Below are positions 4,146 to 22,519 of a stretch of 64,000 nt of DNA, in pieces. A model generated the notes under the pieces. It did not search any database, was not told where the DNA came from, and was given only the letters and a program-made list of their open reading frames with translations. The position numbers and the translations under genes were made by a program. The stretch's first letter is position 1, and the number at the start of each line of letters is the position of its first letter. The DNA comes from Parvularcula marina (lineage in GTDB: Bacteria; Pseudomonadota; Alphaproteobacteria; Caulobacterales; Parvularculaceae), in assembly GCF_003399445.1 (NCBI RefSeq), contig NZ_QUQO01000001.1, positions 1,919,001 through 1,983,000 on the forward strand. The letters are read 5' to 3'.

Positions 4146-5507
4146 ATGATGGAAGGCAGTCTTGAGGGTCTGGGCGCATTGCCCTTCTGGGGGATTACGC
4201 TTGGCGCGTTTGTGCTGTTCTATTTTCTTGGCAGCGTCCTTAAATTCCCGCTCTGGCTGAGAGTCCTGATCGCGCTCCTTGTGGGCGGATTTGTTGGCTA
4301 TCTCTTTGGGGATGTGGCTGCTAGTGTGAAGCCGGTCGGTGACGGGTTCGTCAAACTGATCCGAATGCTTATCATTCCGCTGATTTTCACGACCATCGTT
4401 GCGGGCGTCATTTCGCTTGGCGATCCCAAAAGGCTGGGTAGTCTCGGTGTACGGACGATCCTGCTTTATCTTTGTACGACCGTGTTTGCCGTTGGGCTTG
4501 GGGTTCTGGCTGGGCTGATCGTCAAGCCGGGCGTCAATGTCGATTACGCTGCAGCCGATGTCAGCGCTCAATCTGATCTGACCTCACGGCTGGAAACGGC
4601 GGCGGCAGCCAGCCAGTCACAGACTGCTGCCGACAAGCTTTTAGATATCATTCCCGCCAACCCGATTGAGGCGATGGCGGACGGCAATATCCTGCCGATC
4701 ATTTTCTTCTCCATCTTGTTCGGCATCGGGATCATCGCGGCGAAAGAGGGTGAAGGCCCCGTCGGGAAGGTCATGGAATCCGCTGCTGAGGCGGTTCTGA
4801 AGATCACGCATTTTGTCATGCTTCTGGCACCTTATGGTGTCTACGCGCTCATGGCCTGGGTCATGGGGACGCTTGGCCTTGGGGTTCTCGACAACCTCGC
4901 CAAGCTCGCGGTGGCTCTTTATATCGCCTGTGCCGTCCACATTCTCTTTGTCTATGGCGGCCTTATCCGCGTTGTGGTTGGCCTGCCGCTAATCCGGTTC
5001 TTCAGCGGCATTCTTGATGCGATGAGCACGGCCTATTCAACGGCCAGTTCATCCGCGACGCTGCCGGTGACAATCTCCAATGTGAACAAAAACCTTGGCG
5101 TTGAGAAATCGGTTGCGGGCGCTGTCCTGCCGATCGGTGCGACCGTCAATATGGACGGCACCAGCCTTTATATCGGCCTTGTCGCACTGTTCGCAGCGCA
5201 GGCAGTTGGATTGGATCTGGGGACGGCTGAGTATCTCGCTATCGGGATTGCGGCTGTCGGCGTCAGCATCGGTGCCGCCGGTATTCCGTCCGCAAGCCTG
5301 TTCCTTGCGGTTGGGGTACTGACGACTATCGGCGTAAGCGAAGCAGATGCGATCCTCATCATCGCGCTGATCTTCCCGTTTGATCGCCTACTCGACATGA
5401 TGCGGACGATGACGAATGTGACGGGAGATGCCGCAGTCGCAACAACGGTCGCAAAATGGGAAGGCGCTCTTGATGAGGAAATCTTCCGGCGGGCAGAAAA
5501 AGAATGA
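4146..5507 (+). CDS. Dicarboxylate/amino acid:cation symporter (DAACS family)
   Basis: 453 residues, inner membrane. It shows the GltP/DctA pattern: hydrophobic N-terminal helices, the LIRMLIIPLIFTTIVAGV segment (about 74-91), the Ser-rich hairpin YSTASSSATLPVT (about 296-308), GATVNMDGTSLY (about 329-340) and the second hairpin AAGIPSASLFLAVGVL near residue 376. The family couples uptake of C4-dicarboxylates, glutamate or aspartate to Na+ or H+; the exact substrate cannot be read from sequence. Two adjacent ATGs (4146 and 4149) are possible after GGAGAGGG. The stop overlaps the next ATG (ATGA), and the coupled asparaginase-like protein suggests an Asp/Asn-related role. Confidence 0.92.
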   Translation: MMEGSLEGLGALPFWGITLGAFVLFYFLGSVLKFPLWLRVLIALLVGGFVGYLFGDVAASVKPVGDGFVKLIRMLIIPLIFTTIVAGVISLGDPKRLGSLGVRTILLYLCTTVFAVGLGVLAGLIVKPGVNVDYAAADVSAQSDLTSRLETAAAASQSQTAADKLLDIIPANPIEAMADGNILPIIFFSILFGIGIIAAKEGEGPVGKVMESAAEAVLKITHFVMLLAPYGVYALMAWVMGTLGLGVLDNLAKLAVALYIACAVHILFVYGGLIRVVVGLPLIRFFSGILDAMSTAYSTASSSATLPVTISNVNKNLGVEKSVAGAVLPIGATVNMDGTSLYIGLVALFAAQAVGLDLGTAEYLAIGIAAVGVSIGAAGIPSASLFLAVGVLTTIGVSEADAILIIALIFPFDRLLDMMRTMTNVTGDAAVATTVAKWEGALDEEIFRRAEKE

Positions 5508-19551: not shown

Positions 19552-19620
19552 TAAAGGCGCAAGGCTTGCAAGGACCGCTTCTTAATCAAGCGGTCCTGCA
19601 TGACGGGGGAGAATACTGGG

Positions 19621-20859
19621 ATGAAAATCCTGTTCCTGCACAACAACTACCCGGCCCAGTTCGGGGCGATCGGGCATTATCTCGCAAGCGAAGGCTGGGA
19701 GGTCAGTTTCATGACCCAGCGCGCGGGCACGAAGTCTGACGTGATTAACGTCACCGTCTACCGCGACCGCGATCAGCCTAAGGAATATGATGTCGGCCAC
19801 CCCTACCTGCAGAGCACGGGCAAGGCAGTCGTCACCGGGCTGTCGGCGCTGGAAGTCGCCAATCATCTGAAGAAGAAGCAGGGCTATACGCCGGACGTGA
19901 TGGTGGCCCATTCGGGCTGGGGCCCGGGCTTGTTCCTGAAAGAAGCCTGGCCCGACACCCCGCAGGTCGGCTATTTCGAATGGTATTATAAGGGCGAGGC
20001 CGACGACGTCGTCTTCATGCATGGCCCCGGTCGTCCGCATTTTGAGAAAGCGCGCGAGCGCATCCGCAATGCAACGATCATGTCCGAGCTAATTTCCTGC
20101 GATGCCGGGCTCGTGCCGACCGCCTATCAGGCGTCCCAGTTCCCGCAGATTTTCCAGCCCAAGCTGCGCGTCATGCATGATGGGGTGGACACGGAGAGTT
20201 ACAAACCCGCCGATCCGGGTGAAGTCACATTCGGGGACGACAAATTCACCAAGGGCGAGGAAATCCTCACCTATGTCGCGCGCGGCATGGAGCCCTATCG
20301 CGGCTTCCCTGAATTCATGAATGCGCTGGAGCTGTTGCAAAAGCGGCGGCCCAAACTGCGCACTATCATCGTGGGTGAGGATCGTACCGCCTACGGCAAG
20401 GCACTGAAATCCGGTAAGACGTATAAGGAAGATGCGCTGGAGCGGCTCGATCTCGACCTCTCGCGGATCACCTTTACCGGCCTTCTGCCGCGGAACGAGT
20501 ACCGCAAGGTCATCCAGCTTTCATCCGTGCATGTCTATTTCACCGTGCCCTTCGTCCTGTCGTGGTCGATGATGGAAGCGATGAGCACGGGCTGCCTGAT
20601 GCTCGCCTCTGACACCGCCCCCGTCCGGGAGCTGATCAAGCATGGCGAGAACGGCTATCTGACCAATTATCAGGATAAAGAGCGTCTGGCCGACGATCTT
20701 GAGAAACTTCTCTCGACCAAGGATGATCACGAGCATATCCGGAAAGCGGCGCGCGAGACGATCACCAATAATTACGCTGCACGCGATCTTTATCCGGCGA
20801 AGAAAGCCTTCTTTGCAGAGGTGGCCGCCGGGCGTCAGTTCTCGCGCGGTTTCGTCTGA
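19621..20859 (+). CDS. Glycosyltransferase family 4
   Basis: 412 residues from MKILFLHNNYPAQFG at 19621, with GGGGGAG upstream. The GT-B fold is visible: an N-terminal acceptor half with GHYLASEGWEVSFMTQ near residue 15, and a C-terminal nucleotide-sugar half with TYVARGMEPYRGF near 220, a LLPRNEYRKVIQLSSVHVYFT block near 290 and SMMEAMSTGCLMLASDTAPVRELI near 315-340, including the conserved Glu. The sugar and acceptor are unknown; no polysaccharide cluster surrounds it. Confidence 0.9.
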   Translation: MKILFLHNNYPAQFGAIGHYLASEGWEVSFMTQRAGTKSDVINVTVYRDRDQPKEYDVGHPYLQSTGKAVVTGLSALEVANHLKKKQGYTPDVMVAHSGWGPGLFLKEAWPDTPQVGYFEWYYKGEADDVVFMHGPGRPHFEKARERIRNATIMSELISCDAGLVPTAYQASQFPQIFQPKLRVMHDGVDTESYKPADPGEVTFGDDKFTKGEEILTYVARGMEPYRGFPEFMNALELLQKRRPKLRTIIVGEDRTAYGKALKSGKTYKEDALERLDLDLSRITFTGLLPRNEYRKVIQLSSVHVYFTVPFVLSWSMMEAMSTGCLMLASDTAPVRELIKHGENGYLTNYQDKERLADDLEKLLSTKDDHEHIRKAARETITNNYAARDLYPAKKAFFAEVAAGRQFSRGFV

Positions 20860-20863
20860 TCCC

Positions 20864-20901
20864 CTTAAAATGAGAAAGGGTCACGCATTGCTGCGTGACC
20901 C
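20864..20901 (-). terminator. Strong Rho-independent terminator of the 24-codon ORF and probably the whole upstream minus-strand operon
   Basis: On the minus strand GGGTCACGCA pairs perfectly with TGCGTGACCC over 10 bp around a GCAA tetraloop, followed by TTTCTCATTTT. On the plus strand no T run follows, so it acts mainly in the minus direction. Confidence 0.85.
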
Positions 20902-20962
20902 CGTCAGACCCGCCATTGATCCGGGCCATGTCCCTGAAAGAAGGGACTGTGGGACGTCGCCG

Positions 20963-21037
20963 TCAGGCGAGAGGCTGCTCCCGATCCAAAAGCTCGACAC
21001 CAACCACGTTCCAATGGCGAATTTTCTGACTCGACAT
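20963..21037 (-). CDS. 24-residue small ORF with a near-perfect Shine-Dalgarno sequence
   Basis: ATG at 21037 is preceded by AAAGGAGGTGATCTG, complementary over more than 10 bases to the 3' end of 16S rRNA. The peptide begins MSSQKIRHWNVVGVELLD and ends REQPLA. No membrane helix and no family that I recognise. Between its stop and the terminator are two further inverted repeats (about 20928-20946 and 20909-20931), so the transcript is about 170 or more bases, mostly structured. It begins 101 bases after the GFA gene on the same strand. It could be a small protein, a leader or attenuator peptide, or a dual-function small RNA; I cannot tell which. Confidence 0.55.
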   Translation of the reverse strand: MSSQKIRHWNVVGVELLDREQPLA

Positions 21038-21138
21038 CAGATCACCTCCTTTCAGTTGCTTCCGCAGAGTGAAGGGTGACCTAAATTGCGGGTTCCAGCA
21101 AGCGGCGGGGAAAAGATTAGTTACCGCTGGTTCCGGGC

Positions 21139-21540
21139 TTATGCCTCAAAGCCATTCTGATGCTGCTTTCCTGAATCGCCGATTTCATCCCAGACAGCCT
21201 TGGAGCCGACCCAGATATGGTGGGCGACACGCAAGGTCTCACCGCCTTCGCTAAGAATGCCAGCCGGGACAAACATCGTGTCCGGATCATTCATGCCGGG
21301 AAGCGTCGAGCCGCAAGTCTTGCAGAACCAAGATTGCCAGTCGGCATCGGGCTTCTTCCAGTTCGAAACCAGCTCTTCTCCGCGTAGCCAGCGAAAGTCC
21401 TTGTTGGGAACAATGACGACAGGGATACCTGAGCTGCCAGTCAGTTTCCGGCAGATCGAGCAATGACAGACATAAATGTCTTTGAGCTCCGCATTGATCT
21501 CGAACGCGACGCCGCCGCAATTGCATTCAGCTTTTACCAA
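21139..21540 (-). CDS. GFA family protein (glutathione-dependent formaldehyde-activating fold)
   Basis: 133 residues from a TTG at 21540, chosen because GGGAGAG sits just upstream; an ATG at 21570 lies inside the preceding gene and lacks such a site. The zinc-binding pattern of the GFA/CENP-V fold is complete: ECNCGGVAF near residue 4, VCHCSICRKLTGSSG near 25-39, and WFCKTCGSTL near 72. Members are often annotated as glutathione-S-(hydroxymethyl) synthase, but most have unknown substrates. It lies 13 bases after the unknown 321-residue gene. Confidence 0.9.
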   Translation of the reverse strand: MVKAECNCGGVAFEINAELKDIYVCHCSICRKLTGSSGIPVVIVPNKDFRWLRGEELVSNWKKPDADWQSWFCKTCGSTLPGMNDPDTMFVPAGILSEGGETLRVAHHIWVGSKAVWDEIGDSGKQHQNGFEA

Positions 21541-21553
21541 AGGACGCTCTCCC

Positions 21554-22519
21554 TTACGGCGCAGCGACATAGACCGGGATGAGGGCTGCCTGCTGACGTC
21601 GCCACGCTTCGATCAAGGTCTTGGCAAGCACGATGGCGGCGACCCGTGTCTGGGTCGGATCGGACCTTACAAGAATGGCCAGCCCCAAGGCGATGCATTG
21701 CGCCATGGCGGGGGCGCCGCCCGCAATCCGTAGCGCGTCATAGCCGGTTGAGACATCCGCACGGAAATCATCTGGGTTCGGCTCGCGCATCGCGGCGAGC
21801 GATAAAAGCGGCAGGGCTTCGGCGGCGTGCTCAAGCCGCTCTTCAATCAGGGCCGCGCGATGCCGCTCGATCTGCTTTGCATGATCGGCAAGGCTGTCCT
21901 CCGCGAGCGTGCCGAGGATCGCCGCTTCCATACGCGAGGGGCGGGGCAGGTCGGTTTCGGAAATCGCCTCAACCGCCAGATCAAGATCGATCAGATTATC
22001 GGGTTTGAAGGCGGCGAGCAGGGCAAGGTCCGGCATCAGGGCCGGGCCCGTCTGCCAGAAATGGCCGGTCTTCAGATCCTTCCACGCCGCGCTGATCCGC
22101 GAGAGCAGATAGCTGTCATCCGCGCGGTGCCCGCCGGAGAGGAGCGCGGCAATTGACAGCTCGATCCAGGGCGAGGTGCTGCGCAGCGAAAAGCTAGTCC
22201 ATTGCGCGCGAAAAGCGGAGAGATGCGTGCCGATATGGCCGCTGACGGCGGGTGAGCCCATCAGGAAAGGCGCAAGGATCAGCGCTTCCCAATTCTCGAA
22301 ACTGCCGAAGCTCCCCTCCGAGCGCTGCATGTCGAGGGCATAGTTGGCGGCGCGCGCGGGCTCGGCGCCGGAGGCAAGAATGATGACGGCCGCCGCATCG
22401 CGCAGCCTTTTCGGCGCGGATCGGCACGGGCCTGCCGACAGCTCCTTGCGGATCTCGAGATAATCGAGCAGCGGCAGCGAGGGGCCGGGGGCCACTATGG
22501 GGGCGGTTGCGTCGGTCAA
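21554..22519 (-). CDS. Hypothetical protein, helix-rich, unknown family
   Basis: 321 residues from a TTG at 22519 that overlaps the stop of the ThiF-like gene (TTGA), with GAGGTG a few bases upstream; the frame is open further back but that part duplicates the preceding gene. It is rich in Ala, Leu and Arg, with repeated helical segments (for example RLRDAAAVIILASGAEPARAA near residue 40) and no signal peptide or strong membrane helix. I do not recognise a family. Its coupling to the ThiF-like gene is the only functional hint. Confidence 0.7.
   Translation of the reverse strand: MTDATAPIVAPGPSLPLLDYLEIRKELSAGPCRSAPKRLRDAAAVIILASGAEPARAANYALDMQRSEGSFGSFENWEALILAPFLMGSPAVSGHIGTHLSAFRAQWTSFSLRSTSPWIELSIAALLSGGHRADDSYLLSRISAAWKDLKTGHFWQTGPALMPDLALLAAFKPDNLIDLDLAVEAISETDLPRPSRMEAAILGTLAEDSLADHAKQIERHRAALIEERLEHAAEALPLLSLAAMREPNPDDFRADVSTGYDALRIAGGAPAMAQCIALGLAILVRSDPTQTRVAAIVLAKTLIEAWRRQQAALIPVYVAAP

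Follow-up and report, generated by a model that had tools for sequence, protein, structure and literature searches.

What is a 24-codon ORF with an extremely strong Shine-Dalgarno (SD) sequence doing in Parvularcula marina, in a short stretch between a GFA-domain gene (21139-21570, minus strand) and a convergent glycosyltransferase gene (19600-20859, plus strand)? The unit to which it belongs, of ~195 nt, is a stand-alone RNA gene and, judging from its sequence relationships, a divergent homolog of the Caulobacter small RNA (sRNA) CC2171, Rfam family RF01867. As to its role, we put at about one in two the probability that it belongs to an alphaproteobacterial sRNA family, spread across the class, that engages the ribosome and for which translation matters but the peptide is not the product.

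The window, by which is meant the whole 64-kb stretch of DNA that was analysed, has the gene on its minus strand. Promoter-like sites come first, then a leader and the ORF, and a folded domain leads to the terminator (Table 1). What the original prediction described is indeed there: a near-perfect SD, the 13-mer AAAGGAGGTGATC (21040-21052, minus strand, its single exact occurrence in the window), ahead of an ATG at 21037; the ORF itself, MSSQKIRHWNVVGVELLDREQPLA; and the terminator hairpin with its GCAA loop and T-rich tail. Of the two inverted repeats that it also listed, the one at 20928-20946 is real, as hairpin P3, and the one at 20909-20931 is a weak 4-bp stem which competes with a conserved long-range helix.

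Table 1. Parts of the RNA gene and their positions in the window
Feature	Position	Strand	Remarks
Whole RNA gene	20867..21066	-	5′ end approximate; limits inferred from promoter spacing and terminator
Promoter-like region	21073..21101	-	candidate -35-like TTGCTG (21096-21101), 17-nt spacer, loose -10-like CACCCT (21073-21078); inferred
16S-complementary arm, GAAAGGAGGTGATCTGA, 17 nt	21037..21053	-	two G-U pairs; extended Shine-Dalgarno; reaches A of ATG
24-codon ORF	20963..21037	-	start and length conserved, peptide not
P1a 5′ strand, GTCAGA, within codons 3-5	21025..21030	-	covariation in homologs
P1a 3′ strand, TCTGAC, immediately 5′ of terminator	20903..20908	-	covariation in homologs
P1b 5′ strand, CGCCATTG	21012..21019	-	domain fold, and RNA fold with 5′ arm held open
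P1b 3′ strand, CAATGGCG	20911..20918	-	domain fold, and RNA fold with 5′ arm held open
P2 hairpin, CGGGAG-CAGC-CTCTCG, right before stop codon	20968..20983	-	covarying stem and C[AG][AG][CT] loop in homologs
P3 hairpin, GTCCCT-TCTTTC-AGGGAC	20930..20947	-	fold of unit and of domain
Intrinsic terminator, T-rich tail	20867..20902	-	hairpin GGGTCACGCA-GCAA-TGCGTGACCC

To what does the unit belong? The original prediction knew of no matching family, and in this it has been overtaken. At the gathering threshold an Rfam scan gave no match in the window, and a sensitive scan of 301 bases aligned 20877-21061 to the full RF01867 model (1-159 of 159) at 26.6 bits, E 5e-4 for the 301 bases, which does not reach the curated cut-off of 75 bits. 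Among 200 genomes of the order RF01867 scores above the cut-off in 30, and it does so in three loci outside the order (L233, L234, L237); in further families matches with this anatomy reach E 1e-8 to 1e-2. Wherever the anatomy of these matches was read, SD, start and ORF are alike, and those in Caulobacteraceae have a common core, AAAGGAGGTG(R)(Y)C..RTGTC, and a short ORF. Members above the cut-off share with the window, which aligns over the full length, the 5′ arm, start codon, short ORF, P1 register and terminator; the window is unlike them in having ATG rather than GTG as its start, GTCAGA/TCTGAC in P1, and another P2 loop. Besides the common core, P1 register and terminator, common descent is indicated because the window locus is the top RF01867 match of its own genome, because there are intermediates in other families, and because two further models link the two. 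One, R1, is a 47-nt sequence-only model of the core, and the other, R2, was built from 26 sequences with the window's genus excluded. On the window R2 gives 58.7 bits (E 1.4e-23) over 20952-21063, the only strong match genome-wide, so that the gene is single copy. With R1 the core is found at E 1e-4 or better in about a quarter of 385 genomes of the class, mostly one per genome; within the genus, 9 of 10 genomes have it. When reference genomes were scanned with a pattern, at least 117 contigs came up, mainly of Rhizobiales, Hyphomonadales and relatives, SAR116 and Rhodospirillaceae. The unit is far more widely conserved than the original prediction could foresee, with homologs, usually one per genome, across Alphaproteobacteria. 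Hitherto RF01867 has been catalogued as an uncharacterised Caulobacter sRNA, and the present data extend it over much of Alphaproteobacteria. In the literature consulted, which leaves aside the original description by Landt et al. 2008, no ORF, 16S complementarity or function is described for it; Rfam 15 adds a covarying pair to its consensus structure (PMC11701678), and a 215-nt sequenced transcript of Mesorhizobium huakuii, MH_s33, is labelled RF01867 (PMC5596092), so a homolog is reported to be expressed.

Outside the class, the phylum sample, with R1 matches checked in three genomes, yielded no convincing homolog. One R1 match outside Alphaproteobacteria (L254) was rejected as the antisense of the 16S 3′ end, which itself scores with core models (19.9 bits with R2) and is a trap for core-based searches; for that reason matches on the core alone are weaker evidence. 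Two others (L251, L253) are an ordinary SD before a protein gene, read as resembling an oxidoreductase subunit, the start region of which, AAGGAGGTGATCTGATGTCTA, is a core look-alike, and a second match in the genome of L251 (L252) is without a start codon. A search of viral contigs for the exact core found none. A match of the 3′ part to RF02353 (BjrC68), at 20.4 bits with a cut-off of 39, is absent on Bradyrhizobium-like homologs and was taken as chance. Eight MAG contigs labelled Gammaproteobacteria or Klebsiella (L075, L082, L094, L103, L110, L114, L123, L129) carry the element; either some gamma lineages have it too or the bins carry wrong labels.

How far does the SD depart from the usual? 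The predicted duplex of the arm with the 16S tail is of -27.9 kcal/mol, while for the 57 ORFs of at least 150 aa in the window the best is -17.7 and the median -9.3, and the early claim that it is far stronger than those of its neighbours holds. The consensus arm, GAAAGGAGGTGATCCAA, is complementary to the 16S end, TTGGATCACCTCCTTTC, and 111 of the 145 non-redundant homologs have 17 contiguous pairs, wobble allowed, between the 5′ arm and the last 17 nt of 16S rRNA. Part of the invariant core was demanded by the search pattern, which left positions -2 and -1 free; yet -2 is a pyrimidine in 139 and -1 a purine in 140 of the 145, and since this is what wobble pairing requires, the 16S pairing is preserved. 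Among unbiased R1 matches the distance from the first A of AAAGG down to the start codon is exactly 15 nt in all 55 loci read, and in all 55 codon 2 starts with TC; L242, which starts ATGAAT, is an exception. The present data point to one partner, the 16S 3′ tail. In the RNA folded alone the SD is partly hidden, its mean unpaired probability being 0.29 in the window and 0.37 in homologs.

Is the fold under selection as well? Folding of the 192-nt unit gives z = -3.65, and none of 200 shuffles is as stable. The key feature, which the original prediction could not see, is the long-range helix P1, which starts ~8 nt past the A of the start codon and of which P1a joins codons 3-5 to the bases 5′ of the terminator. 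The domain that P1 closes reaches from just past the start codon to the terminator, and closure is seen in 98% of the 113 natives and in 30% of shuffles (mean domain fold z of the natives, -3.8). RNAalifold could not use a full-length MAFFT alignment of ~100 homologs, which had too many gaps in its middle, and P1 was instead tested by anchored helices, by domain folding and on an alignment of 32 sequences; on the latter RNAalifold found P2 and did not find P1 by itself, P1 being entered by hand and then counted. There P1a and P2 are paired in 90.6% of cells, falling to 38-51% when the partner is slid, and double-change cells number 28 against 7.4 in shuffles, of which none in 500 reaches 28. 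Kinship inflates such shuffle tests, yet several distinct compensated states exist, non-redundant homologs having P1 as GTGAG/CTCAC, GTGAT/ATCAC, TCATT/AATGG, CATGG/CCATG, TCATA/TATGG or CACCA/TGGTG, and the window having GTCAG/CTGAC. Of the homologs with P2, most have it 54-62 nt past the start codon; its CAGC form was found in 97 of 151. One homolog (L028) has ~80 nt extra between the ORF and the P1 3′ strand.

The ORF has its own constraint. Its length is 18-36 codons in 144 of the 145 non-redundant homologs with a detectable terminator, against 25% for dinucleotide shuffles and, for the two alternative frames, 22% and 17%. The exceptions to this range are L190, with 56 codons, and two Bradyrhizobium-like cases with 14, which the terminator filter had left outside the set of 145. 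In L190 the core opens a signal-peptide-like sequence, MSHGAKPVIAVLFGISALLTAGVASA..., unlike the other homologs; the 14-codon ORFs (L226, L227) read VSLTKRCHLAGIAR and VSYLKRCHLAGIAR. Across families the peptides share only MS(S/H), which is set by the RNA core. That start and ORF length are conserved while the peptide drifts is unusual and suggests translation itself as the signal; it is probably the translation that counts and not the peptide. Among the options that the original prediction had offered, a dual-function sRNA comes closest, with structure, start site and ORF length conserved in ~145 non-redundant homologs, and with the length of the frame, rather than the peptide, under selection together with the RNA structure. 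Spot 42 and the rnTrpL of Sinorhizobium are likewise small RNAs with a translatable short ORF, though their peptide is reported to be functional whereas the one here is not conserved.

How might such an RNA operate? Its single-stranded 5′ arm would pair with the entire free 16S 3′ tail, the start codon being at normal SD spacing, and a ribosome would load, translate ~18-36 codons and stop at or just past P2. For translation P1 would have to open, and two states can be envisaged, one with P1 closed, the 16S contact made and entry blocked, and one with P1 open and the RNA under translation. The RNA may sense or buffer the availability of ribosomes, and selection would keep the docking arm, the start codon, the translated length and the folded domain closed by P1. 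The conserved start, length and docking arm, taken with the drifting peptide and a P1 in need of opening, are in keeping with an RNA working through ribosome engagement. Counted against this are the partly hidden SD, the 14- and 56-codon exceptions, the incomplete hold of the CAGC form of P2 and the missed Rfam cut-off, as is the statement, in a passage that does not name CC2171, that Caulobacter ncRNA regions are untranslated (Schrader et al., PMC4117421).

Could the ribosome simply be held? A mimic of a perfect start might tie up free 30S subunits through the 17-nt duplex with 16S rRNA, while P1 blocked the mRNA channel and the ORF was translated little or not at all. The pairing, which takes in all of the 16S tail, reaches the start codon and exceeds what initiation needs, would suit such a decoy, as would the onset of P1 inside the 30S footprint and the single-copy stand-alone gene; the kept ORF length and, in 144 of 145 homologs, a frame free of early stops point instead to real elongation, and leave the decoy an unlikely reading, perhaps one chance among several. 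Of elongating ribosomes and merely held ones, we prefer the former. 6S RNA presents RNA polymerase with a mock promoter. That a near class-wide alphaproteobacterial '6S RNA for the ribosome' exists, docking on the whole 16S tail, with P1 holding or releasing the 30S subunit and so tuning translation capacity, is a similarly tentative thought; the resemblance is one of working only, both being structured RNAs with a gene of their own that may copy a start signal used by a central machine, and there is no sequence relation, the target of 6S being RNA polymerase and the putative one here the 30S subunit.

What of an ordinary small-protein gene, whose product is the 24-residue peptide and whose structure is a feature for mRNA stability? 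The extreme SD and a frame that is always open speak for it, and one sphingomonad-like group conserves the peptide MSHGSA-GSVQFVRETRR, but codon differences are 1119 nonsynonymous to 284 synonymous (~4 to 1), substitutions at codon positions 1, 2 and 3 number 722, 645 and 520, so that the third changes least, and what is shared across families comes from the RNA core, with no Pfam or NCBIfam match for the 24 residues. The comparison of homolog codons, and P2 being read in all three frames across homologs, gave no sign of purifying selection on the peptide. With a peptide that diverges so freely this reading, also among those first proposed, is improbable. The sphingomonad-like group (L186, L212-L214, L216, L218, L225) has an 18-codon ORF and keeps that peptide or near variants.

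Slightly more doubtful still is a sponge for sRNAs with CCUCC (anti-SD-like) seeds. The arm complements any such seed, and RNA sponging is known in Caulobacter, by CrfA against SisA-D (PMC12559287), but the complementarity runs for 17 nt along this particular 16S tail and takes in AAA and GAUC(Y)(R), which is beyond what a CCUCC seed needs, and the start codon and ORF length are left unexplained.

The genomic setting bears on the remaining proposals. In 18 homolog loci, mostly of different genera, the flanking genes vary among families, the downstream gene is convergent in most of those inspected, and no co-directional downstream gene is conserved. A TTG-containing motif peaks at 64-68 nt upstream of the start codon among homologs and is at -64 in the window, and a terminator-like hairpin directly 3′ of P1 is present in most homologs; the RNA would thus be transcribed from its own promoter and end at its own terminator. 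A leader peptide or attenuator of a downstream gene, for which the order of short ORF, hairpins and terminator would be apt, or the 3′ tail of an upstream operon, to which the ~100 bp separating the unit from the GFA gene upstream might point, is very improbable, since neighbours vary, the next gene is often convergent, as here, and the unit travels alone with its promoter-like spacing conserved. The element adjoins a tRNA gene on the opposite strand in the Bradyrhizobium-like L226 and L227, and in L063 an FMN riboswitch (5129-5280, 115.4 bits) lies a few hundred bases downstream of it.
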